Notes under the pieces: model-generated
What the model was told of the DNA's origin: nothing
What the model saw: the letters and a program-made list of their open reading frames with translations, nothing else
The model's database searches: none
Assembly: GCA_012270795.1 (NCBI GenBank)
Contig: JAAXHO010000206.1
Span: 124,001-188,000 of the forward strand
Source of the DNA: Candidatus Poribacteria bacterium
GTDB lineage: Bacteria; Poribacteria; WGA-4E; WGA-3G
Direction: 5' to 3'
Length of the DNA stretch: 64,000 nucleotides
Made by a program: the position numbers and the translations under genes
Shown here: positions 19,625-37,175 of the stretch, in pieces
Position numbering within the stretch: position 1 is the first letter of the stretch
Layout of the letters: every line of letters begins with the position of its first letter

Positions 19625-21613
19625 CTATTTTGTGCCATCTGAACCAGCTATGTCCTATAAAAGCACCGTACCATCGGAACTTCCACTGGCAAGCATACTA
19701 CCGTCCGCACTGAAAATGACACTATTAACATTTCCTGTATGTCCCTTTAGCGTCTGAATGTGTTTACCTGTAGCAACATTCCAAAGACGAATAGTATTGT
19801 CCGCACTTCCGCTTGCAAGTGTGCTTCCATCTGGACTAAAAACAACGCAATAGACGCTACCTTTATGTCCCTTGAGTGTTTGCTTGTGTTTACCTGTCAC
19901 AGCATTCCACAAAAAAATATCAGAATCCACTTCTTGATACCGCGTCATTGCATCACACCCACCTGCGAGTATTTTTCCATCCGGACTGAACGCAACACTG
20001 TTGATGTCTCTCATATTTCCCGATAGTGTTTGCTTGTATTCACCCGTTACAGCATTCCAAAGACGAATTGCCTTATTACCAGGATTATCCTCTCCATTAT
20101 AGGCTGCTTTGCCTCCACCTGCAAGCGTTTTCCCATTTGGATTGAAATTAACACTCCTGAGTGTTAATTTCAGGGCTTCATCATCTTTATGTCCTTGGAG
20201 TTTTTGTTTTTGTTTGCCTGTAGCAACATCCCAAAAATATAAGGTTTTAAAACTTCCAATTGTTTTTAGTCCGCATCCTGCAAGCAAATTTTCAACAGGG
20301 CTGAAAGCAACGCTTGTGAACTTAACTCCAGATTCAGTAAGGATATGTTCAAGCTTAAAATTAGTAACGTTCCAGAGACATACAGTATCCCAACCTCCGC
20401 TTGCGAGCGTTGTTCCATCCGAATTGAACACCACGCTATAGACGGTTGACGTATGTGTAGCGAACGTCTGTTCAAGTTTACCTGTAGCAATATTCCAGAG
20501 ATTAATGGTGTCATCCGAACCTCCACTTACGAGTATTTTCCCATAAGGATCAAATGTAACACTATTAACCGTTCCAGTGTAACCCAAAAGTGTGTGTAGG
20601 GGCACCCGTAGCGATATTCCACACACGAATAGTGTTGTCGTAACTTGCACTTGCAAGCCTTTCTCCATTCGGACTAAAGGTAACACTTATGTTTTTCACA
20701 GTGTCTGTAAATATACGTGTCTGTTTACCGGTGGTAGTATCCCATAAGCGAATCCCATCCCAACTTCCGCTCGCGAGTGTACGGTCCTTAGTACTGTACG
20801 CAAGACTTTCTACCGAATGCGTATGTCCTGTGAGTGTGCGTGTATGTTTACCCGTGTCAACATCCCAGACTCGGATAGTATTGTCACTACTTGCACTTAC
20901 TACCGTTTCTTTATTTTGCCCGAATACAACACTGTTTACCCAACCTGTATGTCCTGTGAGCGTTTGTAGTTGCTTACCTGTGTCAGCATCCCATAATTGG
21001 ACAACGTGCCCGGGCCATCCTTCACCACTTGCGATTGTTTTTCCATCTGGACTGAACGCCAGAGAATTGACCTGCCCTTGTGCGGTTAGTGTGCGTATGT
21101 GTTTTCCCGTAGCGGTATCCCACATTAGGATTTGTGCACCAAATATTTGTCCTCCGCCACGTTCACCCGTACTTCCACTGATAAGGGTGCGACCATCAGG
21201 ACTGAACGCTATACTGCTATACTATAGATACCATACACATGTCCTGTGAGTATCTGCTTATGTTCACCTGTCTTCACATCCCAAAGACGTACGGTTTTGT
21301 CTCTACTGCCACTTGCGAGTGTCTTCCCATCAGGACTAAAAGCGATACGGTTAACATCCGCTAGATGCCCCGTGAGCAAGGTGATTTTTTTATAGGTTGC
21401 AGTATCATAAAGCCAAATTCCGATAGAACCAGCAACTGCAAGACGCTTTCCATCCGGTGAATATTGTATCTGGTTTAGTTTGCCTTTACCGAATCGCGCA
21501 ATGGCACCTTCAGGTAAACCAAATTGCGAAGAATCTTGGGCAAATGTTCTCTGAGAATATTGTATTGAAAGAATAAATAGAAGTGAAAGAATAAAAACAA
21601 AATATTTTTTCAT
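19625..21613 (-). pseudogene. Exported WD40-repeat protein (14 blades), inactivated by three lesions
   Basis: From the ATG at 21613 (AGGAGG upstream) the frame gives a signal peptide and LPEGAIARFGKGKLNQIQYS, then GIWLYD. This is the N-terminus shared by the WD40 proteins downstream. The gene is then broken. First, an exact eight-base tandem duplication (GCTATACT at 21208-21215 and 21216-21223) shifts frame inside a blade; removing one copy restores YSIAFSPDGRTL. Second, near 20590 an (AC) run is one unit short of THTLLGYTG. Third, the last blade's TGG is TAG at 19655, giving VLL-stop-DIAGSDGTK before a final stop at 19625. Counting W or equivalent positions gives 14 blades, i.e. two seven-bladed propellers. 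No sorting domain follows. A consensus promoter lies at 22213-22241. Confidence 0.85.
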
Positions 21614-21701
21614 GAGGTGATCCTCCTATGTGGAATTGGTTATGTATTTAAAAGGATTTAGTCGTTTTGGGATTAAGGGTTTTGGTCATTCATCAAAATT
21701 A

Positions 21702-21825
21702 ACCCAAGTTGCTACCCGTTATTTGTTGGAGGGGTTTCTAACCCCGATTTTACGCCGTTCTATTCTGCTATCGGGGTTAGAAACCCCTCCAACAAGAGTG
21801 TTTTGAAGTAGGTGGCAACTTAGGT
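21702..21825. repeat. MITE-like inverted-repeat element, family A, copy 3
   Basis: The ends ACCCAAGTTGCTACC and (read backwards) ACCTAAGTTGCCACCTACTT enclose the TTGTTGGAGGGGTTTCTAAC hairpin. It lies between the conserved leader element and the start codon of the broken WD40 gene, so it probably inserted into that gene's 5' untranslated region. Confidence 0.8.
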
Positions 21826-21945
21826 AAAATTAAAGAAAATGCTTAATCCCAAGACTACTAATTCCCTATTTAAATGTTAGATTTCTAATTATTTTTGAAT
21901 GGGTGTAATTTGTATCATCATGTCTGTTATTTTTACTTTTTTTTG

Positions 21946-22168
21946 GACGATTCATTCTTAAAATGTTACCAAATGGACACTTTTTTCGTTTTTTTGGTAA
22001 CATTTTTTAATTTGATGTAAATCCAGTATTAGTAAGGGTTTACAGGTGTTTTTTTTGTGAATTTTTGCGAATTTAAAAAATATTTTTAGGAATGTGTAAC
22101 ATTTTGTAATTCTTGTTTTTGAATGCGTAAATTCTTGTTTTTGAATGCGTAAAATGTGTCAGTTTTAT
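21946..22168 (-). promoter_or_regulatory. Conserved structured leader element, copy A (upstream of WD40 gene)
   Basis: Read on the minus strand, this region shares ordered blocks with 31468-31659. These are ATAAAACTGACACAT (22168-22154), AAAATGTTACAC (22105-22094) and a GTAAACC/GG-TTTAC hairpin around 22050-22017. A 14-base inverted repeat AAAATGTTACCAAA/TTTGGTAACATTTT (21960-22006) follows, then AAGAATGAATCGTCC. The inverted-repeat arms differ from the other copy at two positions, and both are compensated on the other arm. It follows a consensus promoter and lies in the transcript of the gene starting at 21613. This is inferred to be a cis-regulatory RNA or operator; it matches no class I recognise. 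Confidence 0.6.
22108..22151. repeat. Perfect 22-base tandem duplication inside leader copy A
   Basis: Two identical 22-base units of AATTCTTGTTTTTGAATGCG followed by TA lie head to tail between two conserved blocks of the leader. They are absent from the other leader copy, so this is a local expansion. Confidence 0.85.
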
Positions 22169-22212
22169 AAGTTCTGTTTAATGCTTTGTAATACAATCGT
22201 TGTGTAATATGT

Positions 22213-22241
22213 ATTATAACGTATTTAATAAGATGTGTCAA
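22213..22241 (-). promoter_or_regulatory. Consensus sigma-70-type promoter of the broken WD40 gene
   Basis: On the minus strand, TTGACA (22241-22236) is separated by exactly 17 bases from TATAAT (22218-22213). Both hexamers are perfect consensus. The start of transcription would be near 22206, giving a ~590-base leader before the ATG at 21613. Confidence 0.75.
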
Positions 22242-22344
22242 GTTTTTTTGAAAAATTTTCTGAATTTTTGGTTTTATAGTAAATTTTAGAATTTCCTGAA
22301 CACTTCGATCTATGCGTTAAGCAAACCTAACGGATTGCGTGTAT

Positions 22345-22403
22345 TGTAGCACAACCTGTTAGGTTGTGTTCTGTTTCTGCACAACCTAACAGGTTGTGCT
22401 ACA
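22345..22403. repeat. Perfect 24-base-arm hairpin
   Basis: TGTAGCACAACCTGTTAGGT and the next four bases (22345-22368) are exactly complementary to 22380-22403, with an 11-base loop. It lies upstream of the promoter at 22213-22241 and is not part of a gene. Confidence 0.8.
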
Positions 22404-22421
22404 GAAATGCCCAAGTAATTA

Positions 22422-22569
22422 TGGTAAATTATACAATTAATTCTACATTTTGAGTTGTAGGAGCGACCTTGGGTCGCGACCGGGGGTCGTTCCTAAAGAA
22501 GAGACTGCACGGTCGCGACCCAAGGTCGCTCCTACAGAAGAGGTGTATAATTATTTCAATAATTCACCA
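22422..22569. repeat. MITE-like inverted-repeat element, family B, copy 2 (expanded core)
   Basis: The ends (TGGTAAATTATACAATTAAT on the left, and GAAGAGGTGTATAATTATTT near the right) match the copy at 2238-2346. The core holds the GTAGGAGCGACC hairpin twice: once degraded (CGGGGGTCGTTCC) and once intact (GGTCGCTCCTAC). It abuts the 3' end of a WD40 gene. Confidence 0.75.
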
Positions 22570-22583
22570 TAAATGAATGGTCG

Positions 22584-25151
22584 TTATTTTCGTATTAACA
22601 TTTTGCGGGTTGCGGTGAATTGTCCTGCTGTTAGTGTGTAAAAATATACGCCGCTTGCGACTGTTTCCCCAAGTTCGTTTTCACCGTTCCAATATGCAGC
22701 CTTTTCTTGGTCTAAGTAGAGTCCAACGGGTTGATGTCCGAATTTTAATGTTCGGATCAATCGTCCTTCAGCGGAATAGATTCGGATTGACACATCTGCT
22801 GATCTTGCCAGTTGGTATGGAATCCATGTTTCTGGGTTGAATGGATTTGGATAGTTCGGTAGCAAAGCAGTTTGCAATGGATATAAAGCGACAATGAGTT
22901 CTTTGAGGAATTGAACACCGAGTTGAGAGATATAATCTGTTTTTTCCAAATGTAGTACTTTGTACAACCATGTTTTCGCCGTTTCTCTTGTAGGTGCAAT
23001 GTCCTTACCTTGGCGGACAGCGTCAAGTACTGCATCAGGATTTCTAAACGTTCCAATAGCCCTGATCAAGTCTTCAATATTGACGATACCGTCTTTGTTA
23101 ACATCTGCGACATTATAACCAGTTTTTCCAAAGTTTTCTGCAATTATCATTACATCATGCATACCTTCTCTACCATCGTTATTTAAATCTGCAATTTGAT
23201 GAGATGGATCGGTAATGGATTTTACGTCCCACAAAAGGATTGTACCTCCGGAGCTTGCTGTAGCGAGTGTATTACCATCTGGACTAAATGCAATCACATC
23301 AACTTCATCCGGTTTTGTTTGTAGTGTGATTGCCGCTTCACCTTCAATGGGGTCCATTAACTTAATTTTATCGTTTTCCCAATAACCAGCAGTAATTGGG
23401 GTGTATTCTTCTGGATTGTTTCCGAATCTGACGAAGTTCGTTGTGTGAGGCAGTAAGTTCTGTGTTCTCTCATTTGCAGGTATGTTCCACAAACGCACGT
23501 CGTTATTTTCCAAGATAACAGTCAGGGTATTACAGTTAGGGCTAAACACACTCAACGGATCTTCTATTGTCATTCCAGTGTATGTGCCTATCTGCTGCCT
23601 GCTTGCGAAATCCCAAACGTATATACCTGTGGAATCACCATTTGCAACTCTTTGTCCGTCAGGACTAAACGTTAACCCTCCAATACTTTTTCTTTTTTCA
23701 TTTTGTGCTTTTAATTCGCCTCTATCCCCATTGATAGTCCATATAGGATGTCCTGTTTCGGTATCCCAAAAGATTGCCTTTCCCTCCCATCCGCAACTTG
23801 CGACCAAACTTCCATCAGGACTAAAAGTTACGTGATAGACAGTACTGTGATGTCCGAGTAAGACAGCTTTTTGGGTCTGTGTCGTAACATCCCATAGTCG
23901 AACGGTGTAGTCATCCGCGAACCATGCGTTATCAAGGGAAGAACCAGCACCGCTTGCGATGGTTTTACCATCGGGACTGAACGCCACCGTTTGAACATCT
24001 GCGATATGTCCTAAGAAGGTAATTGTGTTTTCGCCAGTATTTGTATTCCAAACACGTACGGTGGTGTCATAGCTGCCGGTTACAATTTTATCTCCACTTG
24101 GACTGAAAGCAATGCTTCTGAATCCGTAGGCGTGTCCAGTTATTCTGCCAATCTGCAGAAAACTATCGGTATCCCACAAGATGATAGTGCCATCTCGACT
24201 ACCACTTACCAGCGTTTTCCCATCCGGACTAAATGCGATACTTACTACGAAATCCGTATGTTCAATAAGCGTTTTTTTATAGCTCTGTGTAGCAACATCC
24301 CAGAGGATGATGGTTTCATCATCACCACCACTTGCAAGTGTCTTACCGTCTGGACTGAATGCCATAGTTTTTATACCTTCTGCATGTCCTCTAAGAGAGT
24401 TATGCATGTCAGTCGTTACATCCCATAGATGTATTATACTGTCCAACCATCCACCCTGGATTGCAATGGTGTTGCCATCTGGACTAAATACTACTTTTTC
24501 GATATCGTTGGCATCTATCATGTCTATTGTCGTTAGAATTGTTCCAGTAGAAACATCTCTTATGTTTACTTTATCAGAATCAAGGTGAAAAACACTTGCG
24601 AGTAATTTTCCATCGGGGCTGAATGTGATGTAGTTAACATTATTTTCCTGAATAGCAAACGTTTTTTCTAATGTGCCAGTGGATACATCCCAAAATTTTA
24701 TCTGATCACCACCCCGACCACGTGTTGCTAAAGTATTACCATTTGTGAGAAATTCTATACTTGAAATATCCTTTGCATGCGCTTGAACTTTGTACTTGAG
24801 ATTACCCGTTTCTAACTCCCAGATATATAAATCGTTAGCACTACTACAAACGATTGTTTTTCCATCCGGACTGAATGCGACACTTGTGGTATAACCTTCG
24901 TGTATGTCAAGCAGAGCAAGTTCCTTCCCTGTGTGTACATCGTAAATCCAAATTCCAATTGAACTTGAAACAGCAAGGTGTGAACTATCTGGTGAAAATT
25001 CTATATTTGCAGATATTTCTCCTTTACCGATTCGCATTTTCGCGCCCTTCGGCAATCCCCATCTTGTATAATCTTCAGCATAGGCAGAGGGTTGATATAG
25101 GATTAAGAATAACAACAGAATTGAAATGGTTGACCGAATTTTAATACTCAT
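22584..25151 (-). CDS. Exported 14-blade WD40 protein with dockerin-like repeats and PNPFNPE sorting domain
   Basis: An 855-residue exported protein. A signal peptide (ISILLLFLILYQPSAYA) precedes the shared start LPKGAKMRIGKGEISANIEF. Fourteen WD40 blades can be counted by their W-D/W-N ends (IWIYD to ILLWD, ~55-655), consistent with two seven-bladed propellers. Next come two EF-hand/dockerin-like loops (DLNNDGREGMHD and DVNKDGIVNIED). The C-terminal ~85 residues are a FlgD-like/sorting domain (PNYPNPFNPETWIPYQL to SGVYFYTLTAG). The protein is probably exported and held on or released from the cell surface; WD40 propellers usually bind partners. It is translated from an ATG eight bases after the stop of the upstream WD40 gene, with the ribosome binding site overlapping that stop. 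Confidence 0.9.
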   Translation of the reverse strand: MSIKIRSTISILLLFLILYQPSAYAEDYTRWGLPKGAKMRIGKGEISANIEFSPDSSHLAVSSSIGIWIYDVHTGKELALLDIHEGYTTSVAFSPDGKTIVCSSANDLYIWELETGNLKYKVQAHAKDISSIEFLTNGNTLATRGRGGDQIKFWDVSTGTLEKTFAIQENNVNYITFSPDGKLLASVFHLDSDKVNIRDVSTGTILTTIDMIDANDIEKVVFSPDGNTIAIQGGWLDSIIHLWDVTTDMHNSLRGHAEGIKTMAFSPDGKTLASGGDDETIILWDVATQSYKKTLIEHTDFVVSIAFSPDGKTLVSGSRDGTIILWDTDSFLQIGRITGHAYGFRSIAFSPSGDKIVTGSYDTTVRVWNTNTGENTITFLGHIADVQTVAFSPDGKTIASGAGSSLDNAWFADDYTVRLWDVTTQTQKAVLLGHHSTVYHVTFSPDGSLVASCGWEGKAIFWDTETGHPIWTINGDRGELKAQNEKRKSIGGLTFSPDGQRVANGDSTGIYVWDFASRQQIGTYTGMTIEDPLSVFSPNCNTLTVILENNDVRLWNIPANERTQNLLPHTTNFVRFGNNPEEYTPITAGYWENDKIKLMDPIEGEAAITLQTKPDEVDVIAFSPDGNTLATASSGGTILLWDVKSITDPSHQIADLNNDGREGMHDVMIIAENFGKTGYNVADVNKDGIVNIEDLIRAIGTFRNPDAVLDAVRQGKDIAPTRETAKTWLYKVLHLEKTDYISQLGVQFLKELIVALYPLQTALLPNYPNPFNPETWIPYQLARSADVSIRIYSAEGRLIRTLKFGHQPVGLYLDQEKAAYWNGENELGETVASGVYFYTLTAGQFTATRKMLIRK

Positions 25152-25159
25152 AACTCCTC

Positions 25160-27415
25160 CTATTTTCGTATTACCATTCGTTGTATTGCTGTATAGTTTC
25201 CAGCAGACAACCTATAGAAATAGATTCCACTTGCTACCGGTTCACCGAGTTCATTTTTTCCGTCCCAATGCGCTGCTCTACTTCTATTTTGATATATCCC
25301 TGCAGGTTTGTTCCCTAAGTCTAACGTACGAATTAATTGTCCATTAGATGTATAGATGTTTATTTTAACATTTTCTGTTTGAGCTAAATGATACGGTATC
25401 CATGTTTCAGGATTGAATGGGTTTGGATAGTTTTTGAGGAGTGCGGTCTTTTTTGGAGTCAATGATTTCAATACTTGAAGGTCAACATTTTTGCCATTAT
25501 TTGCATCTTTGGAGAGTTGATTTCGTATGGTGTTTGCACTCAAATAAGGTGTAAAATCCCATAGTAGTACGGATCCGTCACTACCTGATGTTATAAGTGT
25601 TGTCCCATCTGATGTAAAATCGAGATTGGATATACCGCTTGTATGTCCTGTAAGAGTTGTTATCAGGTTTCCAGTCGGGACATCCCAAAGTTTTACTTTA
25701 TTGTCATTCCATCGTGAACGACAACTGACTAATGTTTTGCCATCGGAACTGAAATGTAATTTACTCACGCCATTGGGATGTCCTGAATAAATAACTTTCA
25801 TATCTCCTGTAGCGATATCCCATATCATTATCGTTTCATCTTCGCCGCCGCACGCGACCATACTGGCATCTGGATTGAATGCGACAGTAGTAATGTTGCC
25901 CGAATAATCAGAGAGTGTCTTTATTTTGGATTGTGTTTCAACATCCCACAATCGAACAGTAGCGTCTTCGCTTCCACTTGCGAGAATGCTTCCATCGTTA
26001 CTGAAAGCAACTGAAGTAATTTCCCCTTGATGTCCTGAGAGATCGCCTATGTAGGTGCGTCCTTTATACCATAGGTGAATTGTCTTATCTTTGTTGGCTG
26101 CAGCGAGGATATCACCATTTGGACTGTAGGCAAAGGAATTATAACCAGATTTTGTATAAGTTCCACTTCTACTTCCCTGAACCCGCTTAATTAAGTTAGT
26201 TATCGGTGCAATTTTTTGAACATCCCATAGAATAATTTCTAAACCTTCAATGTAAGCGAGTGTGTATCCATCTGGACTGAATATCAAATTTGTAGGATGT
26301 GACCAGAATCCAGCATGAATAGACTTGATAGGTTTACCTGTTTTTGTGTCCCACAGATACATTTTTTCATAGGTAGAGGTTGCGATGATGTTGTCGTTTG
26401 GACTGATTGTCATTGAAGTAAACAGGGCTGCATGTCCACCGATAGACATAATGCGTGCACCACTATCAATATCCCAAATAAACAATTCATCAGCACCGCC
26501 ACTTGTCAGTGTTCTTCCATCTGGACTAAACGCGACAGATTTTACAGTTCTTATATGTCCACCGAGTTGAGTGATGTGTTTGTTGTTGACAATATCCCAT
26601 AGATGCATTTCGTCGCTGCCCCCTATTGCCAGGGTTTTTCTATCAGGACTTAATGCAAGACTATTGGGATTGGTAAATGTGAAAGTTGTTTTCACCATAC
26701 CAGTCTCAACATCCCATGTTGTGACACTATCTTCGTTAAAACTTGAACTAACAAGTGTTTTTCCATCAGGTCCAATAATAATATCAGAGGTACTAATGGC
26801 AAGTTCTGTATAGGTCGATTTATGGGTAGTTGAAGAAATGTCCCATAATTTCACAGAATCCTCCCACGTGCCGCTGAGGAGGGTCTTACCATCAGGACTG
26901 AAAACAATAAAGCTGATCCAACTTGTATGTCCATCAAGAGTGTCTATAAGTTCTCCATCTGTGAGATCCCAAAGCAATATCTCATCTTTATTTGTTAATG
27001 CAAGTTTCTTTCCGTTAGGACCGAACACAACATGTCGAATATATTCAGTATTCGTTTTCAATGAAAATTTGATTCTCCCACTGGGATAGTCTCGTACGGT
27101 GATTTCTTCTTCGGAATCTATTTGAACATACAGACTCAAGTTTTGATTGAAACCCAGTATGTCCTGAGAATGTTCAGCGATAAAGTCCAGTTCCTTACCT
27201 GTATGAGCGTCATAAATCCAAAATCCTATGGTTGTATCCACTACTAATCGCTTTCCGTCCGATGAATACACTACATCTTCTACACTCCCCTTTCCGATGC
27301 GTAGTTTTGCACCTTCAGGTAATGACCATCTTGTATAATCTTGAGCAGAAGTGCTTTGTAGAAAAACAGAAGAAACGAATGCAATTACTAATATGGAATA
27401 TTTGACTACTCTCAT
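25160..27415 (-). CDS. Exported 14-blade WD40 protein with PNPFNPE sorting domain
   Basis: A 751-residue protein with a signal peptide (SILVIAFVSSVFLQSTSAQ) and the shared start LPEGAKLRIGKGSVEDVVYS, then GFWIYD. About 14 blades follow (for example AFSPDGRTLTSGG, LFIWD; VRLWDVETQS), the second being degenerate. There is no dockerin. The C-terminal sorting domain begins KNYPNPFNPETWIPYHL and ends YRLSAGNYTAIQRMVIRK. AGGAGG lies upstream of the ATG. The stop codon TAG is part of the downstream gene's AGGAGGAG ribosome binding site, so translation of the pair is likely coupled. The 340 bases before the start (27416-27755) contain no gene I can support, only a hairpin near the next gene's end. 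Confidence 0.9.
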   Translation of the reverse strand: MRVVKYSILVIAFVSSVFLQSTSAQDYTRWSLPEGAKLRIGKGSVEDVVYSSDGKRLVVDTTIGFWIYDAHTGKELDFIAEHSQDILGFNQNLSLYVQIDSEEEITVRDYPSGRIKFSLKTNTEYIRHVVFGPNGKKLALTNKDEILLWDLTDGELIDTLDGHTSWISFIVFSPDGKTLLSGTWEDSVKLWDISSTTHKSTYTELAISTSDIIIGPDGKTLVSSSFNEDSVTTWDVETGMVKTTFTFTNPNSLALSPDRKTLAIGGSDEMHLWDIVNNKHITQLGGHIRTVKSVAFSPDGRTLTSGGADELFIWDIDSGARIMSIGGHAALFTSMTISPNDNIIATSTYEKMYLWDTKTGKPIKSIHAGFWSHPTNLIFSPDGYTLAYIEGLEIILWDVQKIAPITNLIKRVQGSRSGTYTKSGYNSFAYSPNGDILAAANKDKTIHLWYKGRTYIGDLSGHQGEITSVAFSNDGSILASGSEDATVRLWDVETQSKIKTLSDYSGNITTVAFNPDASMVACGGEDETIMIWDIATGDMKVIYSGHPNGVSKLHFSSDGKTLVSCRSRWNDNKVKLWDVPTGNLITTLTGHTSGISNLDFTSDGTTLITSGSDGSVLLWDFTPYLSANTIRNQLSKDANNGKNVDLQVLKSLTPKKTALLKNYPNPFNPETWIPYHLAQTENVKINIYTSNGQLIRTLDLGNKPAGIYQNRSRAAHWDGKNELGEPVASGIYFYRLSAGNYTAIQRMVIRK

Positions 27416-27706
27416 TGGTGTAGCCTCCTATTGGATTCGGAAGTATTCTACACCTTTTGAGCAAATTTGATGCCAATTTGGTTATATCTTTGTACTGCCT
27501 TTATTATGGTTTCTGCGGAGTGTGAGCTTGTCAATATCTAATTCAATTGTCCAAGAAATGACATTATTGTCCACAAACTGAACACTTATATCGGCAAGAT
27601 AAAGATATATCCTATTGTAAGATCGGGGTTTAGAAACCCAGCCAATAAAATAAACTGGATTTAGGTCGTATGAAGGTTTTAGAAACGGTTGGATAATAGG
27701 GTGAAC

Positions 27707-27741
27707 ATAAGGCAAGGTATCTGAATGGCATCTTGCCTTAT
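27707..27741 (-). terminator. Terminator-like hairpin after the cohesin/dockerin WD40 gene
   Basis: ATAAGGCAAG and its perfect complement CTTGCCTTAT, with a 15-base loop, lie 15 bases after the stop at 27756. There is no long T-run. Confidence 0.45.
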
Positions 27742-27755
27742 GATATGGTTTGAGT

Positions 27756-30644
27756 TTACTTTAAGATAAGCATTTTTCGTGTTGCATTGAATTGTCCTGC
27801 TGTGAGTGTATAGTAGTAGACACCGCTTGCGACTGTTTCCCCGAGTTCGTTTTTCCCATCCCAATAGGCTGCAGAACCTTTATTTTCATATAATCCTGCA
27901 GGTTTATGTCCTAATGTTATGGTTCGGATGAGTTGTCCTTTTGCGGAATGTATGGTGAGAGTAACATCAGCAGGTTGTGCAAGATGATACGGTATCCATG
28001 TTTCTGGGTTGAATGGATTGGGGAAGTTGGATAAGAGTGCGGTTTTTTGCGGAGTCAATGCTTGAAGTAGTTGTGTCAATACAAAGATGCCGCGCTGCAT
28101 TTTAGGATCGGTTAGGTCTAATTTGTTTGCTGCATCTAACCAATTTTGTACATCGGTTCTTGAAAGAGAAGCAGAAAGGTTATTTTTGCTGAATGCTGGG
28201 GAGGAATTGGAGGTGTCACCGAATGCAGCTGCAACTAAAGTAAGGTCAATGATGTCAACAATTTCATCACCGTTGACATCTGCATGGTTTTCGCCTTCAG
28301 TGCCGAAGTTTGAAGCGACTATGGTAAGATCTTGTATATTAACGACACCGTCCCCATTGAGATCGCCTTGTTGGAGCATAGGTGCAACGATACTTCCCGA
28401 TTGGACTCGTGCGTAAGAGACGTTTCCTGCATTATCTGTCAATCGGACATTAGAAATAGTTATGGACGATGCTTTTGGTGCAACGATCTCAAATGTCAAA
28501 GTCGCGAGTGTGCCGTTTCCGGTGCTTGCACCAGAAAAAGATACAGCTGCAATTGTGATAGTGTTTTCATCAATTATGGTAGGAATTGCGTAAGCCCCCG
28601 TTGGGAGAAAATCACCAATAGCAGTTTCAACATAACTCAGAGCAGATGCGTCGTATCTAATGGTTGCCTGATATCCAACAATACTACCTGAGTTTTCAAT
28701 TCCGAGCGAGAGAGTCAGTTGTTCACCGATAGCGGATGACTCAACTGGAGAGGGAGATATTCGGACAGTAGCATAAGAAGTCATTGGTGGTGTATAGTTC
28801 CACACTAGGACAGTGCCATCAGTGCTGCTGCTTGCGATTGTACTTCTAACTGGATTAAAATCAACATCAAGAACTAGGCCGGTATGTCCGGTAAATGTTT
28901 GAATATTCTGTCCAGAAATAGTATCCCAGAGTCGGACTGTGCCATCACTACTTCCACTTGTAAGTAATTCTCCATTTTCGTTGAAATCTAAACTCCAAAT
29001 TATTCCTGTGTGTTCAGTAAAGTTTTGTAGTTCTACCCCAAAGACGACATCCCATAATTTGACAGTACCGTCGTCGCTGCTGGTTGCAAGGACATTACCA
29101 TTTGGACTAAATTGTACACTTCCAACAGCATCTGTGTGTCCTTCAAGCGTCTGAATATGCTCGCCTGAAAGTGCGTCCCAAAGTTGGACGGTTCCATCTC
29201 CGCCGCCACTGGCTATCATATTACCGTCTGGGCTGAATGCAACGCTTAACACTGAAAAAATATGTCCTGTGTAGGTATGGATTATTTCACCGTCTGTACT
29301 ATCCCATAATATGGCTGTCCCATCTGCGCTACCGCTTGCCATTTTTAATCCATCTGGACTAAAGGCAACACTCCAAACCCGGGCTGTGTGTCCGTTGAAT
29401 GCCTCTAATACTTCTCCTGTAGTACTGTTCCATAGTCTAGGTATGTTATCATCACCACCACTTATGAGTCTATTTCCATCAGGGCTGAAATTTATGTCCC
29501 AAACCCAATTCGTATGTCCTGTCAATCGTTGCTGGTGTTCTCCTGTGGTTGCATTCCAAAAATTGATCTCATTATCTGATCCGCTGGTTGCAATGATAGT
29601 TCCATTATGATTAAATGTTACACCAAGTATAAAGTTTGAATATCCTGCTATGACTTGCCGTTGTCCACCAAAGACGGCGTCCCATATTCGTACGGTTCCA
29701 TCTGAGCTTGCGCTTGCGATGGTTCCTCCCGTGTTGTTGTAATCTACACTTATAACACTATTTGTATGTCCGATAAGTGCTTGCTGCGATTGTCCGTTAA
29801 CTGTGTCCCACAATAAAATTGTTCCATCAGCACTTGCACTTGAAATTGTAGCACCATTTGGACTGTATGCTATACTATAAACAGAAGCGTCATGTCCGGG
29901 TAAGGTTTGCTTGATGACACCGAAAGCGGGATACCATAAACGAATAGTTCCGTCAGCACCACTACTTGCAAGCGTGCCGTCAGACGGACTGAATGCTAAA
30001 GTATAGACAGCGTCATCGTGTTCAAGGAGTATATGTTGTTGTTCCCCCGTTGCTACCTCCCACAGTTGAACGGATGTGTCTAAACTGGCACTTGCTAAGG
30101 TTGCGCCGGATTCACTAAATGCAACTGCGGTTACAGCATCAAAATGTCCGGTAAGTTCCCTCAGGTGTTCACCTGTTGTGTAATTCCATAAACGGACTGT
30201 CGTATCAGCAGCACCACTTGCGAGTGTTGTTCCATCCGAACTAAATGCGACACTGTAAACCACATTTGTATGTCCAATGAGTTTTCTTTGAAAAGTGCCG
30301 GTTGCAGTATTCCATAGGTATATAGTCCCGTCAACACTCCCGCCTGCAATGATAGCACCATCTTCACTAAATGCGGTGCAGAAAATTTCGACATTATCCT
30401 TTGTTAGCAATGAAATTTCTGTATTGGATGATGTGTCATACAACCAAATACCGATACTACTTACAACTGCAAGTCGAGTGCTGTCAGGAGAGTATTTTAT
30501 TTCATGCAATCTACCTTTACCGAGCCGTGCTGTTGCATCGTCGGGCAGGCTCAATTGCATTTCGCCTTGGGAATATGTGGTGGATTGGTAGAACGTTGGT
30601 AACAATAGTAGTGATAAGATAAACAGAATATACGATTTTTTCAT
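27756..30644 (-). CDS. Exported 14-blade WD40 protein with cohesin-like and dockerin-like domains and sorting domain
   Basis: A 962-residue exported protein. The signal peptide (SLLLLPTFYQSTTYSQ) and LPDDATARLGKGRLHEIKYS precede 14 WD40 blades (IWLYD to VLVWN, ~55-640). Residues ~645-775 form a cohesin-like beta-sandwich (SSAIGEQLTLSLGIENSG, YQATIRYDASALSYVE, TGNGTLATLTFEIV). Two dockerin-like calcium loops follow (DLNGDGVVNIQD, DVNGDEIVDIID). The last ~85 residues are the PNPFNPETWIPYHL sorting domain. Cohesin-dockerin pairs are the joints of cellulosomes and related scaffolds. The combination here suggests homotypic or neighbour assembly of propeller proteins outside the cell, which is inference. 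AAGGAG precedes the ATG. On the minus strand, TGCTATACT upstream is a possible extended -10. Confidence 0.9.
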   Translation of the reverse strand: MKKSYILFILSLLLLPTFYQSTTYSQGEMQLSLPDDATARLGKGRLHEIKYSPDSTRLAVVSSIGIWLYDTSSNTEISLLTKDNVEIFCTAFSEDGAIIAGGSVDGTIYLWNTATGTFQRKLIGHTNVVYSVAFSSDGTTLASGAADTTVRLWNYTTGEHLRELTGHFDAVTAVAFSESGATLASASLDTSVQLWEVATGEQQHILLEHDDAVYTLAFSPSDGTLASSGADGTIRLWYPAFGVIKQTLPGHDASVYSIAYSPNGATISSASADGTILLWDTVNGQSQQALIGHTNSVISVDYNNTGGTIASASSDGTVRIWDAVFGGQRQVIAGYSNFILGVTFNHNGTIIATSGSDNEINFWNATTGEHQQRLTGHTNWVWDINFSPDGNRLISGGDDNIPRLWNSTTGEVLEAFNGHTARVWSVAFSPDGLKMASGSADGTAILWDSTDGEIIHTYTGHIFSVLSVAFSPDGNMIASGGGDGTVQLWDALSGEHIQTLEGHTDAVGSVQFSPNGNVLATSSDDGTVKLWDVVFGVELQNFTEHTGIIWSLDFNENGELLTSGSSDGTVRLWDTISGQNIQTFTGHTGLVLDVDFNPVRSTIASSSTDGTVLVWNYTPPMTSYATVRISPSPVESSAIGEQLTLSLGIENSGSIVGYQATIRYDASALSYVETAIGDFLPTGAYAIPTIIDENTITIAAVSFSGASTGNGTLATLTFEIVAPKASSITISNVRLTDNAGNVSYARVQSGSIVAPMLQQGDLNGDGVVNIQDLTIVASNFGTEGENHADVNGDEIVDIIDLTLVAAAFGDTSNSSPAFSKNNLSASLSRTDVQNWLDAANKLDLTDPKMQRGIFVLTQLLQALTPQKTALLSNFPNPFNPETWIPYHLAQPADVTLTIHSAKGQLIRTITLGHKPAGLYENKGSAAYWDGKNELGETVASGVYYYTLTAGQFNATRKMLILK

Positions 30645-31394
30645 TGCAATAATACTCCTTGAACGGAATTGAGTTTATAATTCATTTCTGGACATTCTGA
30701 TTTTTTAATTAGTATAGCACAAAATTACAGGATATGCATTCTTTTTTTGACATGTTTTAGAATATAAGCTATATAACTGAAAACGTCCAATAATCAATGT
30801 GATGCCACACGAGGTATCATCTGTGGATGTGCATAGACAGCAGCATCAAAACTTTTTTGCATCAGTTCCCACTTGATGTTTTGAAAATCAGCATGAAGGG
30901 TGTCTTTTCCGCGCCTTCCGTGTACTCCGCGCCTTCCGTGATTCTGAAGCACACCGTGAAATCCGCGATTCTGTACCTAAATCCGCGCTATCAACCGATA
31001 GCCGACTGCTGAAGCCATTGGATATATATTGGAAATCCCAATAAACAGACACACAAAAAACTACAAAACGCATTAAAAATCACTTATAATATATATAAAA
31101 ATAAGCACACAACAAGAACGCTATGCAAAACCAAAAACCGAACAAAAAACACCAACAAAAAACCGTCCCGAAATCCGACAATAATTTTACCAAAAAAACA
31201 CTACAAAAACTCCCATGAAGCTTTATGAAAACTGGACGCATAACGAATTAACAAAACCGTACCGTAAACCGAAAAAACCGTACCGTACGGTTTTAAAAGT
31301 AGAAATTTCTTATGAAAACTAAAAAAATACACAAAAATTTTGCAGCTATTCCACACACAAAAAGGAGTAAAACATAAACAAACGTTAAAAATAC
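30645..31394. other. 750-base intergenic region, no gene supported
   Basis: The region separates the divergent WD40 gene (30644) and propeller gene (31714). It holds a 13-base direct repeat CGCGCCTTCCGTG at 30910 and 30928, a motif echoed near 53277-53316. It also holds a palindrome AAAACCGTAC-C-GTACGGTTTT at 31274-31294, preceded by related ACCGTACCGTAAACC. A plus-strand TTGACA-17-TATATA at 30747-30775 could be a promoter but has no gene after it. The rest is AT-rich and low complexity. Confidence 0.5.
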
Positions 31395-31423
31395 TTGACA
31401 CACATTATTATGTGTGTTATAAT
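31395..31423 (+). promoter_or_regulatory. Consensus sigma-70-type promoter of the metallopeptidase/propeller gene
   Basis: TTGACA (31395-31400), a 17-base spacer and TATAAT (31418-31423), all perfect consensus. The start of transcription would be near 31430, giving a leader of about 285 bases before the ATG at 31714. Confidence 0.8.
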
Positions 31424-31467
31424 ATACTTCACATATTAAACTTATGATAAATATTATGACCACATCT

Positions 31468-31659
31468 ATAAAACTGACACATGCTGCTCCTAAAAGGACA
31501 ACAAACTTCAAAATGTTACACTTTCCAAAAAAACATTTTTTTCAATTCACAAGAAAACACCCGTAAACCTTTGCTACTACTGGGTTTACGCCACATTTAA
31601 AATGTTTTCAAAAAAACGAAATTTGTTTTCATTTGAAAACATTTTAAGGACGAATCGCC
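31468..31659 (+). promoter_or_regulatory. Conserved structured leader element, copy B
   Basis: It contains, in the same order as copy A, ATAAAACTGACACAT (31468), AAAATGTTACAC (31510-31521) and the hairpin CGTAAACC/GGTTTACG (~31562-31590). The 14-base inverted repeat AAAATGTTTTCAAA/TTTGAAAACATTTT (31599-31645) and AAGGACGAATCGCC follow. Relative to copy A, two stem positions in the large repeat and the outermost pair of the small hairpin change on both arms. It lies fully inside the predicted 5' leader of the gene at 31714. Confidence 0.6.
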
Positions 31660-31713
31660 TAATAAAAACGCATAAATAAACACAACTCTTACCAACATAT
31701 TGGATGAACTGAA

Positions 31714-34700
31714 ATGTTTAATAACATAAGATGGTATACACAGATTCCAAATAGATTCAAAAAATTTTCAGGTTACTGCCTGATCTTTCTGGTTGCATGG
31801 TTCTGTGGTCTAAACCTGAAATTATTTGCAGAACCTTGGAAATGTGGAACACCGTTATTATGCGAAAAACACCTACCTATTCAAGACATCAGTATTGTAA
31901 ACAGCAGCAATATGTATGCTATTCCCGCAGCTCCCGCACAACCTGGACAAATTGATAAATTCTTTATTCACATACCTGAAGAATCTATCAATGCTACTTG
32001 TGTTGCTGTAGGAATAAATTGCTATATCTATATTGAAGAAAAATATCAGCACATGCTAACCGTAACACAAGCAAAATCAATCGCTAATACATTTGATACA
32101 AGAATTTATCCAGAAGTTCACCATTGGATAGGAAAGGAAAATCAACCCGGTTTAGATAGAGATAATAGAATTACTATCCTATTTCACGATGTAGGTATAA
32201 ATGAATCAGGACGAGGCTATGGAGGGTATTTCTCTCCTATTGACCAGTATCCAACTTTACCCACAAGCAACCGACGTGATATATTGTATATGGATATTTT
32301 TCAATACAAGGAGCGATCTCAACATACATTCTACAGTAGTCTTGCACACGAATTCGCACATCTCGTGAACTGGTATCAGAACGGGGGAACAACCGATCAA
32401 CGTTGGTTAGAGGAAGGTATCGCATCTTTTACAGAATGGGGAGTTTACGGCACTGTTCACAACCTGTTTGTTGATGGCTATCTTGATGAACCAAGTATGT
32501 CATTAACTACTGCAAATAATAATGAAATTTATTATGGTGCCGCTTTTATGTTAATGCTCTATCTATATGAAAACCACGGTGGAATTAATTTCATTCGCAA
32601 CATCGCTGCTGAAGATAAACTCGGAATTCCTGCAATTGATACGACTTTAGGTGAAAACAAAAACTACGTAGATGTCTTCCTAAACTGGGGAATAGCAAAT
32701 TGGTTCAATAATAAAGCACGCGGACGTGTCTTCAGTTATCAGAATCTACCTAATCGGAAAATCACAGCACAAACTTCACAAATAAAACGTTTCCCCACAA
32801 CTTCAAACGAAATGCCAATTGAAAGTTGGGGTACAAAATATATACTTTTTCAAAACCTTCCTGAGACTTTTGAACTCACATTAACAGCAAGCAGCCCCGC
32901 AAAACTACACGCGAATATTGCTTATTTCTCAACAAATACCGACATCCCAAAAGTCATTCCGATTCCGACTGTATCAAATCTGAATAATCCTAATACAAAT
33001 TCTGTGAACAATATAGCAATCGGAAATATCAGTCAAACTGCACAAATTCTCTTAATCGTTACATCAGAATATCCTCAACAGTTCCGCTATGAAGCAAAAC
33101 TTGGAACTGGAAATGATTGGATTGACATTGGAAATATTCCAAACACATCTACAAGGATTATTGATCCTCTTGACAATCATTGGTTAATTGATGACATCTC
33201 TCATCCTACATTCTCAAATTCACAGTCAATCTATGAAGGACGAACTGAAGGAAAAACACTAATAACACAAAACGTCTATCCTCAACTACATCCAATGAAT
33301 CAAATTCATCTCTCAAGCAAATATAATGAGATTATAGTACAAGAAAAGATGCTTTTCGCTGCAAGTGGTTGGGGACTTGAATTATTCTCTCTAAACCCAT
33401 TACCAACATTAATGGGAGAAATTGGCACGCCAGGTACTGCTTATGCAATCACAACAATTGACGATTATGTTTATATTGCTGATGGTGAATTCGGTGTACA
33501 TCTGATTGATGTGTCCACACCCGATGCACCTATGATTATTAAAACGCTTGGGGGGATTCAAGATGCTGTAGATGTTTATTATGCTGATGAAGAACTATAT
33601 ACGCTTGATAGAATACGAGGTCTATTAGTATACAACCATCAGGATAACCTCAATAACGATAATCCACTACCGCGTCGCTCTTTTCAAATCGCAGGAACAC
33701 CATTCAAAGTATCCAAAAGCAGCGATGGAAAAATATATTTAAGCGATGATACACAAGGTCTTTACATCCTAACAGCTGCTCCACTTGGGGGTTACAATGT
33801 TATTGACACTATTCCTTTTTTGGCACTTGACTTTGAAATTTTCGGTCAATACGCGCTTGTTGCTTCAAGTAATTTTCGCATTTTTGATATTGAACCACCT
33901 TCAACAACTCAACTGATTTCACGTATAAATACTCCCGGTCAACTCTCAAGCCTAAAATATTTTCAAGGATTGCTATACCTTACTGACAAACAATCTGGTT
34001 TGCACATTGCCAAACTTGATAATATTCACATGCCTCAATTGATATCTTCCCACCCAACAATAGGAAATGCAGAAGATGTTGCATTAATGCATTCATTTAC
34101 TGATGAAAAAACCTATGCCTATGTCGCAGATGGGAAAAGTGGTATACAAACCTTGGATGTAACCAGCCCCAATAAACCTATTTGGATAAATCACTACAAT
34201 TCCACTGGACACGCACACGCGGTTGATGTCCTATCACAAAACGGAACTACTACAATTGCTATTGCCAATGGACGCAGTGGACTAAAATTGATTGAACTGA
34301 CAAATCCCTATTCAGGCAAAATTACAAAAGAACTCCGTAAGTTTTCAGGTGAACAAGGGGCGTTGAGTGTAAAATTACACAGAAATTATGCTTTTGTCGG
34401 AACAGATACCGGTATGGATGTCGTCAATATCGATTCAAGTGTTATGCTAACACATATCCCTACGAACAGTCCTGTATGGGATATTGACATAATAAGAGAC
34501 CACGCATATCTGTGTGCAAAATCGCTTTATGTTGTAGACATAACATCACCGGAACGTAGTCTTATTGTATCAAATAGAAGACTATCAGGTACTGCATATA
34601 AAATGGTTCAGAGCGACACCCATGCTTATATTGCATCCCTTGAAGGGGGTGTCCACATTTTGGATATATCAACACCCGCACTGCCACGTCCTATTTCAAA

Positions 34701-35388
34701 CTACAAAACTGTTGGTACAGCAACAAACGTAGCACTTGATGAAAAGAACTTATATATTCTGGATAATCGTATAGGTGTGCTAAAATTAGATATAAAAAAC
34801 CAAACACAACCGACTTTATTGTCAGAATTCACAGATACCAAGATACCAATTCACGCAGTCGTTCAAGGGGATTATCTTTACCTATTGGATATTGATACGA
34901 TCCAAATTATTGACACCCGAACAATGCACCGTCAAGCTCGCTATCCACAAGCATATCCTCCTACCAGTCTTGCAGCAACCCATTCTGCACTTTATGTTAC
35001 AAATCAATACCAACTCAATATGTATAGAATTCGAACTGACGCATCAAACCTTGCAGTTGAAGAACCCCCACAGGAATTCCGACAGAATACTTCACTATTG
35101 GTTGAACAATCTCATAATCAACTACTTCAAAACTACCCAAACCCATTCAATCCCGAAACGTGGATTCCTTATTCACTTACCAAAGGTATTGAAGTTTCTC
35201 TATCAATTTTTGATGCAAATGGGCACACTATCCTACAAAAATCGTTGGGTTATCAACCATCTGGAAAGCATATTACCTTCTGGGATGGACGCAATTCAAT
35301 GGGAGAACCCGTTGCAAGTGGAATATATTTTTATACACTCTCTACAGGTAATTTCACATCAACCCGAAAAATGATCCTACAACGATAG
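31714..35388 (+). CDS. Exported metallopeptidase-like protein with LVIVD beta-propeller and PNPFNPE sorting domain
   Basis: A 1224-residue protein. The N-terminus is a signal peptide or anchor (YCLIFLVAWFCGLNLKLFA). Residues ~70-330 resemble a secreted M6/M30-type metallopeptidase. The zinc motif HEFAH is at ~212-216, followed by LVNWYQNGGTTDQRWLEEGI, whose WLEEG glutamate fits the third ligand. From ~535 to 1090 there are repeated LVIVD-type blades (YVYIADGEFGVHLIDVSTPD; TYAYVADGKSGIQTLDVTSP). The C-terminal ~85 residues are the sorting domain QNYPNPFNPETWIPYSL. It is likely a surface-exposed or released protease. Its promoter and leader match those of the broken WD40 gene at 19625-21613, so the two may be co-regulated. 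Confidence 0.85.
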   Translation: MFNNIRWYTQIPNRFKKFSGYCLIFLVAWFCGLNLKLFAEPWKCGTPLLCEKHLPIQDISIVNSSNMYAIPAAPAQPGQIDKFFIHIPEESINATCVAVGINCYIYIEEKYQHMLTVTQAKSIANTFDTRIYPEVHHWIGKENQPGLDRDNRITILFHDVGINESGRGYGGYFSPIDQYPTLPTSNRRDILYMDIFQYKERSQHTFYSSLAHEFAHLVNWYQNGGTTDQRWLEEGIASFTEWGVYGTVHNLFVDGYLDEPSMSLTTANNNEIYYGAAFMLMLYLYENHGGINFIRNIAAEDKLGIPAIDTTLGENKNYVDVFLNWGIANWFNNKARGRVFSYQNLPNRKITAQTSQIKRFPTTSNEMPIESWGTKYILFQNLPETFELTLTASSPAKLHANIAYFSTNTDIPKVIPIPTVSNLNNPNTNSVNNIAIGNISQTAQILLIVTSEYPQQFRYEAKLGTGNDWIDIGNIPNTSTRIIDPLDNHWLIDDISHPTFSNSQSIYEGRTEGKTLITQNVYPQLHPMNQIHLSSKYNEIIVQEKMLFAASGWGLELFSLNPLPTLMGEIGTPGTAYAITTIDDYVYIADGEFGVHLIDVSTPDAPMIIKTLGGIQDAVDVYYADEELYTLDRIRGLLVYNHQDNLNNDNPLPRRSFQIAGTPFKVSKSSDGKIYLSDDTQGLYILTAAPLGGYNVIDTIPFLALDFEIFGQYALVASSNFRIFDIEPPSTTQLISRINTPGQLSSLKYFQGLLYLTDKQSGLHIAKLDNIHMPQLISSHPTIGNAEDVALMHSFTDEKTYAYVADGKSGIQTLDVTSPNKPIWINHYNSTGHAHAVDVLSQNGTTTIAIANGRSGLKLIELTNPYSGKITKELRKFSGEQGALSVKLHRNYAFVGTDTGMDVVNIDSSVMLTHIPTNSPVWDIDIIRDHAYLCAKSLYVVDITSPERSLIVSNRRLSGTAYKMVQSDTHAYIASLEGGVHILDISTPALPRPISNYKTVGTATNVALDEKNLYILDNRIGVLKLDIKNQTQPTLLSEFTDTKIPIHAVVQGDYLYLLDIDTIQIIDTRTMHRQARYPQAYPPTSLAATHSALYVTNQYQLNMYRIRTDASNLAVEEPPQEFRQNTSLLVEQSHNQLLQNYPNPFNPETWIPYSLTKGIEVSLSIFDANGHTILQKSLGYQPSGKHITFWDGRNSMGEPVASGIYFYTLSTGNFTSTRKMILQR

Positions 35389-35534: not shown

Positions 35535-37175
35535 ATGGCAGCCAACAGTGTATCTGGAAGCTTTCGGGGAATAGAGGTAAGTTTTTCATACAACGGCCCC
35601 CATATAGTCATGAGCGTTTTAAATACAAAAGAAGTAGGTAGACAGTTACGCGTGATGTACCAACATCAACCACCAAGTGGACGAGTCAATTGGACCTCTT
35701 TACAACTAACAGGACAAAAACAAAATGTTGTCGTTCCTCCTGAAGTAATTAATGCACACAAATTAGCATTCTATGTTGACGATCATGAACCAATTGCAAC
35801 CTATATGGAAAGTATATTGAATGAACTTCAACATTTACAAGTTCCAGAAAATGAGATACCAGAAACTACATCTGATGAGTTAGAGAATAATACAGAAGAA
35901 AATACCACTGAATCAAATGAAGAAATTGGTGTACAGGACAAGGATAACAGTACAAAGGACAGTCAAATTGAAAACTCACAGACTGACGAATTACAATCAG
36001 CAAATAAGGTAGAGGATAAAATATCTAAACAAGATATAATAAAGGAAACCGCAAATGGGTATGATTCAGACAACAAATTAGATAATTCTAAATTTAAGTT
36101 GGAAGACTCAACTCCAATTCAACCACAAAGTACAAACACTAAACCGAAGGATACGAAGAGTCAACAAAATGGGCAGAAGGATACAATTCCGAATCAAATA
36201 CCCAATGAACAATCTATACCAAAACGAAAAACACAATATGTTGGACGATATGTCCCTGATGTTAGTACTGAATTACAGTTTAATATCAAAGTACCAACTA
36301 TACCCAAAAGTGCTTCTAAACAAGAAGTAACTTTTATCCCTCCACGCCCGGCATTAACTCCAAAATCAAATTCCAAAAAATTTGGAATCTTTGGTCAATT
36401 GGCCGGAGCTATCGGTTTAAACGTTCCTAAGAAGAAAATGTATTACATGCAGGAAAACCGGCATTTATATGAGAAATTCCACGCAAACTTAGAAAAAATG
36501 GAACGTGATTACAACGATGGATGTGGTATTCCGTTAGATAATTGGGACCTTGAGTCTCTAAGTGAACAGCAGACAGCAGTTCTACTATTGAATCTCATGG
36601 TTAACGAATTAGAAGCATGGAAAAAGGAAGCGAAAAAAGCCAGTACCACGGAAGATACGCTTGCAAAGTCACTTGAAAAAATAGAGAAAGAACTTAAACA
36701 AACTCTAAAACAGACAAGAGGTATTGATGCACCAGCACCCACACTGTTCCCAGATAGAACTGCCGCATCCGACCAAGATTTAATGCGTATACAGAAAAAC
36801 TGTGATGTCTACCTTGAACGTTTTTCTGAAAAACTTGCTGCACTTGAGCAAAAACATGCAGAAAAAGTTCGCGTCTCAGCATTCAAAAAATTCTTGTTGG
36901 AATTTATACGAGACAAACTTTTCCCAAAAGTCGCTGAGTTTAGTTCCCTAAAGTTCGTTCAAAAAAGATTAAATTGGTTTCTTAATTTAGTTGATTATGA
37001 ATTGATACCAATCGAACCCGGAAAAACAAAGTTTTCCCCAGAACTTCATAAAGTGAAAGGAAAACGCCGTACCGATCTCGAATCTAATACGATTGTTGAG
37101 GTGGTCTCTCCCGGTCTACAGACTAAAGACGGTAAGAGAATTATTCAGAATGCTGTTGTGATTCAAGCGGAGTAG
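35535..37175 (+). CDS. Hypothetical protein with disordered middle, coiled coil and GrpE-like C-terminus
   Basis: A 546-residue cytoplasmic protein without signal peptide. Residues 1-100 form a small unknown domain (SGSFRGIEVSFSYNGPHIVM). Residues ~105-230 are rich in Glu, Asn, Gln, Ser and Thr and look disordered. Residues ~300-450 look helical or coiled (AWKKEAKKASTTEDTLAKSL). The last ~60 residues resemble the GrpE beta-domain: LIPIEPGKTKFSPELHKVKG, then NTIVEVVSPG and AVVIQAE. GrpE is the nucleotide exchange factor of DnaK; no dnaK is adjacent, so this may be a specialised co-chaperone. The resemblance is by eye only. AAGGAG lies upstream of the ATG. The next gene starts four bases after its stop, so they are co-transcribed. 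Confidence 0.55.
   Translation: MAANSVSGSFRGIEVSFSYNGPHIVMSVLNTKEVGRQLRVMYQHQPPSGRVNWTSLQLTGQKQNVVVPPEVINAHKLAFYVDDHEPIATYMESILNELQHLQVPENEIPETTSDELENNTEENTTESNEEIGVQDKDNSTKDSQIENSQTDELQSANKVEDKISKQDIIKETANGYDSDNKLDNSKFKLEDSTPIQPQSTNTKPKDTKSQQNGQKDTIPNQIPNEQSIPKRKTQYVGRYVPDVSTELQFNIKVPTIPKSASKQEVTFIPPRPALTPKSNSKKFGIFGQLAGAIGLNVPKKKMYYMQENRHLYEKFHANLEKMERDYNDGCGIPLDNWDLESLSEQQTAVLLLNLMVNELEAWKKEAKKASTTEDTLAKSLEKIEKELKQTLKQTRGIDAPAPTLFPDRTAASDQDLMRIQKNCDVYLERFSEKLAALEQKHAEKVRVSAFKKFLLEFIRDKLFPKVAEFSSLKFVQKRLNWFLNLVDYELIPIEPGKTKFSPELHKVKGKRRTDLESNTIVEVVSPGLQTKDGKRIIQNAVVIQAE

Follow-up and report, generated by a model that had tools for sequence, protein, structure and literature searches.

The window analysed here is a 64,000-nt stretch of a contig of Candidatus Poribacteria bacterium (GCA_012270795.1, JAAXHO010000206.1, positions 124,001-188,000, forward strand), a sponge-symbiont-type bacterium of the phylum Poribacteria. 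It holds two close copies of a promoter with a structured leader, copy A on the minus strand and copy B on the plus strand, together with a third, divergent copy. A sequence-only reading had described in A and B a series of blocks that follows TTGACA-17-TATAAT in fixed order, and all of these blocks are present where it placed them, correct to the base. The features are as follows.

19655-21613, minus strand: WD40 gene 3' of copy A, broken into different frames by frameshifts
21960-22006, minus strand: copy A large hairpin, allele GTTACC/GTGTCC/GGTAAC
21960-22107, minus strand: copy A core, match to covariance model R1 (128.6 bits)
22017-22043, minus strand: copy A H1 motif AACCC-TAC-nnnn-ACTGG (sequence conserved; imperfect stem)
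22094-22105, minus strand: copy A 5' box "L", AAAATGTTACAC, then a U-rich block
22108-22151, minus strand: 22-nt tandem duplication, private to copy A
22154-22168, minus strand: copy A block ATAAAACTGACACAT
22213-22241, minus strand: copy A promoter TTGACA-17-TATAAT, 12/12 sigma-70 match
31158-31294, plus strand: third element, divergent, with a CCGTACC-type hairpin (33.6 bits with the covariance model; type as L071/L073)
31395-31423, plus strand: copy B promoter TTGACA-17-TATAAT, extended -10 (TG), 12/12
31468-31482, plus strand: copy B block ATAAAACTGACACAT
31508-31645, plus strand: copy B core, match to covariance model R1 (142.6 bits)
31510-31521, plus strand: copy B 5' box "L"
31563-31589, plus strand: copy B H1 motif/small stem
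31599-31645, plus strand: copy B large hairpin, allele GTTTTC/GTTTTC/GAAAAC
31714-35388, plus strand: gene after copy B, 1224 aa, with LVIVD repeats and an FlgD-like/C-terminal sorting domain

The two promoters are the only 12/12 sigma-70 matches within 20500-32500, and within the window ATAAAACTGACACAT occurs at copies A and B only. In copy A the small stem consists of GTAAACCC..GGATTTAC (22043-22017, minus strand) with a C-A mismatch inside, the arms of the large hairpin are AAAATGTTACCAAA (22006-21993) and TTTGGTAACATTTT (21973-21960), and AAGAATGAATCG at 21959-21948 is the last block; in copy B the arms lie at 31599-31612 and 31632-31645 on the plus strand and AAGGACGAATCG (31646-31657) is the last block. 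The third element is directly 5' of the copy B promoter, placing two different leaders in tandem. Around copy A there are three further perfect long inverted repeats (22345-22403, 22456-22536 and 21723-21795), with arms of 24-27 nt and unrelated to the leader. The hairpin of copy B is 68 nt from the downstream ATG. The WD40 gene is apparently a pseudogene; its first ORF (21209-21613, minus strand) encodes a signal-like N-terminus and starts 346 nt past the copy A hairpin.

A DNA search of the source genome returned nine copies at 85-100% identity, copy B itself counted, as well as divergent ones, and with E-values down to 1e-111 the likeness of A and B is not due to chance. The sequence-only description of a leader shared by two genes proved too narrow, because a covariance model (R1) built from 20 copies matches 20 strong (110-156 bits) and about 30 weaker (37-63 bits) copies in this genome; there are dozens of copies of this control region per genome. 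The weaker copies have the middle motif in common and a different hairpin, for example of the CATACC or CCGTACC type. One additional match (36286-36392, plus strand; 19.5 bits, E 0.37), within a gene region, is likely a chance match. Among 40 relatives, the covariance-model search that had been suggested for related genomes gave matches only in the genus of the source genome (g1) and in a second genus of its family (g2); the element was absent from the other Poribacterial families tested, and several element loci are common to different species. Comparison across the family confirmed that promoter and leader form one conserved unit with its block order kept, and the large hairpin keeps its pairing through sequence change. 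In agreement with the earlier view that no described leader class has these blocks, no Rfam 15 family matched the element at or above the gathering threshold; the sub-threshold matches were weak, mostly to eukaryotic families, and some lay on other repeats.

The identity of this family is well supported, and so is its home: the element belongs upstream of a Poribacterial DUF2280-like (phage-like) gene, as its 5' leader. In several copies, AAGGAGG and a small gene stand immediately 3' of the element. Among the matches listed, the encoded protein scores 22.5 and 21.0 bits against PF10045 (DUF2280), the better of these being below the Pfam cut-off of 24, and we therefore call it DUF2280-like. Its likeness to the DUF2280 proteins of phages lies in 8 of 14 family members that match PF10045 at E<=0.01, whereas the Poribacterial proteins are longer, do not reach the cut-off and were not matched by tblastn in any of 50,697 phage records. 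A PDB profile search found nothing significant, and the AlphaFold model of the protein from G013, made from a single sequence, is all-helical with a mean pLDDT of 44. Literature searches on Poribacterial repeats and RNA motifs and on DUF2280 returned nothing relevant except one phage annotation, in which the DUF2280 gene adjoins the terminase large subunit gene (PMC7760358).

The association between leader and gene is near-universal in the full-length DUF2280-like genes examined in g1 and g2, which have a leader of the same kind whose hairpin ends a few bases before the Shine-Dalgarno sequence. The leader abuts the Shine-Dalgarno sequence of a full-length gene in g1 genomes G016, G005, G013, G000, G014, G008, G003, G015, G017, G006, G002 and G009, as well as in G018 and further g2 genomes; the leader match is looser in G076 and G082 (g2), and the leader of G012 is cut by a contig edge. 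The L box and the U-rich block are likewise found in the g2 leaders. Of 85 Poribacterial genomes, 42 encode the protein, and these all belong to g1 or g2, which is the range of the element itself. In G007 (a tandem pair) and G011 the element is 3' rather than 5' of a DUF2280-like gene (L268, L269). G002, G008, G009 and G014 contain stray gene fragments that cover only profile positions 1-24 to 1-32, so that many dispersed copies consist of the leader and a gene stub. In the window genome, the single copy of the gene that was found has three TGA and one TAA internal stops and is a pseudogene, and its own hairpin is imperfect (GTTGCC/AGTAAC).

Away from home, the copies are solo leaders, some with the first 24-32 codons of the gene and some within an element of about 0.55 kb (0.53-0.58) bounded by terminal inverted repeats (TIRs), CAGAGGCATTCAATTGTC. 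Direct repeats of 8-10 bp, read by eye, flank this element at three loci in other genomes (L120, CTGCGAAAT; L147, CCTATTTTG; L225, CAACTTAA). At least one recognisable TIR end is near 38 of 150 copies and both ends are near few; neither copy A nor copy B has TIR ends. The insertion at L120 is missing at the corresponding place in G000, where the flanks are rearranged and a clean empty site was not obtained.

The genes downstream of the copies are diverse and unrelated, which removes the link to secreted beta-propeller genes proposed from copies A and B. What they have in common is orientation: copies are kept almost only in the sense direction upstream of other genes. With genes called by ORF length (at least 100 aa) and copies taken as a model-selected sample rather than a census, the next downstream gene is co-directional at 125 of 138 loci (125:13, p=4e-24) and, when one locus per downstream protein cluster is counted, at 86 of 97 (86:11, p=1e-15), while the upstream neighbours used as a control show no bias (59:72). 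A median of 283 nt separates the hairpin from the downstream gene. The promoter is conserved as well, with a perfect TTGACA-17/18-TATAAT in 16 of the 20 strong copies of the source genome. A match of at least 11/12 is reached by 89% of the 19 strong copies scored, compared to 0.5% of shuffled sequences, and by 88% of the copies in G013; in other genomes, the divergent copies mostly have non-consensus promoters (7% reach 11/12). In the promoter spacer of copy B (31398-31417), the inverted repeat ACACACAT-TATT-ATGTGTGT, partly kept in other copies, is a possible candidate operator.

The comparison of many copies shows selection for pairing in the large inverted repeat, with many arm sequences used and their complementarity kept. 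Complementarity of arm c to the hairpin sequence on its 5' side extends over 10.7 nt on average, compared to 6.3 nt with c from another genome, and that of the L box to the arm over 8.0 nt, compared to 6.4 nt with swapped partners, a modest difference outside the lineages in which L and the hairpin arm change together; relatedness inflates tests of this kind, the allele comparison below included, as they apply no correction for a tree. The hairpin region folds with a mean z of -4.4. Among 34 copies from the source genome (G000) and G013, 30 show perfect pairing of c with a or b (with c shuffled, the mean is 15.2 and the maximum 24), and in 4 c is unpaired in the 6-nt core. Core arms in these copies are recurrent alleles that switch as blocks. 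The paired differences between A and B, read earlier as a mark of selection, therefore do not represent two independent compensatory events, even though the underlying idea of selection on arm complementarity held up. Read by eye in two copies, the compensatory change was thus a true sign of structural selection, but misleading on the owner of the leader. The covariation reported for the small hairpin was not reproduced: AACCC and ACTGG of H1 are kept in sequence, while H1 as a paired structure is unsupported (61.6% standard pairs, compared to 58.3% in shuffled sequences). The loop of the large hairpin varies from 2 nt in g2 (GTTACAC-CA-GTGTAAC) to some 19-20 nt in copies A and B with pairing kept, and a hairpin thus fits better than an operator for a dimer. 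The large stem, which is AT-rich and followed by 4-5 U, was not called as an intrinsic terminator at the level of a simple consensus, and no conserved reading frame for a leader peptide was seen by eye in the few copies inspected, in which the frames looked broken by indels.

On this evidence, we consider it probable that the element is a dispersed cis-regulatory 5' leader of the DUF2280-like gene family, solo copies of which are kept in sense before other genes. In this leader, a sigma-70 promoter is followed after about 85 nt by the L box and the U-rich block, then by the H1 motif, the long hairpin and the Shine-Dalgarno sequence. In our model, it would have spread as solo copies partly by means of the 0.55-kb TIR element and partly along with initial codons of the DUF2280-like gene. 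Most likely it is a mobile promoter-leader in sense orientation, with a hairpin that adjusts expression at the RNA level: transcription would start at the leader promoter and run into the next gene, and the hairpin may function as a weak transcription attenuator or may shield or stabilise the 5' side of the ribosome-binding site. The position of the home-gene hairpin right before the Shine-Dalgarno sequence points to attenuation or to an effect on translation or stability, although the stem is not a consensus terminator. L can, in several lineages, pair with the 3' arm of this hairpin and may be a competing partner. Several observations count against this model, namely that 283 nt is long for a translational leader, that the AT-rich stem is not called as an intrinsic terminator, that c is unpaired in 4 of 34 copies, that divergent copies mostly have non-consensus promoters and that L matches the arm only modestly in lineages where the two do not change together.

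The same repeats might instead be read at the DNA level, with L, a, b and c as sites for a DNA-binding protein such as the product of the DUF2280-like gene, in an autoregulatory circuit whose regulon is the set of solo copies. The units are direct and inverted repeats that form a palindrome in g2, joint changes affect L, a and c in G014/G008 (CGTACC, CGTACACA, CGAACC), and the protein family and the terminase neighbourhood of its phage relative fit such a role. We nevertheless regard this reading as rather unlikely, given that the N-terminal regions of the G003, G017 and G014 proteins are near-identical while their units differ (GTTACC, CATACC, CCGTACC), that arm spacing ranges from 2 to about 20 nt and that the leaders of the window genome are still intact although the only gene copy found there has four stop codons.

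That the element is a neutral, MITE-like mobile repeat carrying an old gene leader, with hairpins as by-products of transposition and gene conversion, is improbable. The sequence-only reading had named a plain mobile repeat as the finding that would overturn it, and the unit is indeed dispersed, partly in a TIR element with flanking repeats; near-identical copies are multiple, hairpin alleles switch as blocks and the L120 insertion was not found at its counterpart in G000. Neutrality is strained, however, by the 125 of 138 copies that point into the next gene and by the perfect promoters kept in the strong copies; moreover, TIR ends are infrequent and several loci are shared between species. 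A promoter, a length of about 220 nt and a hairpin with a short U run would also suit free-standing small RNA genes with a terminator-like end, an explanation that we hold to be very improbable in view of the strong sense coupling to the next gene, the Shine-Dalgarno sequence directly 3' in the home gene and the weakness of the terminator.

Bacterial MITEs with outward promoters, such as the Correia elements of Neisseria, are short intergenic TIR repeats that carry promoters. The cis-regulatory leader described here resembles them in being a short repeat with a promoter between genes, in part with TIRs, but what it carries is the leader belonging to one definite gene family, TIRs are missing from most copies and the sense bias is strong. 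With Rfam-type cis-regulatory leader motifs it shares conserved blocks and a hairpin directly before one gene family in two genera, whereas it matches no Rfam family, its arms are replaced wholesale with pairing kept, and solo copies occur genome-wide. Hairpin leaders and promoter-carrying MITEs are known kinds; as far as we have searched, in literature that excludes most subscription journals, an element that unites the two with wholesale replacement of arms and with solo copies biased towards sense is undescribed. The family offers a natural series for following the spread of regulatory leaders and their rewiring of gene expression, with a single home gene and numerous solo copies, a strong sense bias and hairpins replaced in sequence with complementarity kept.

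We speculate, with considerable doubt, that the DUF2280-like protein or another factor might recognise L/H1 of its own leader and set hairpin formation; leader copies lying in sense before tens of genes per genome would then constitute a new regulon that arose by duplication, in which the arms could drift freely if they stay paired. Finally, we note that the element and its DUF2280-like gene lie within a CRISPR-Cas locus in G016 (L247, 4263-10067) and in G005 (L248, 714-5694), between cas3 and either cas10/csm1 (G016) or cas4-cas1 (G005), with the cas families confirmed by NCBIfam.
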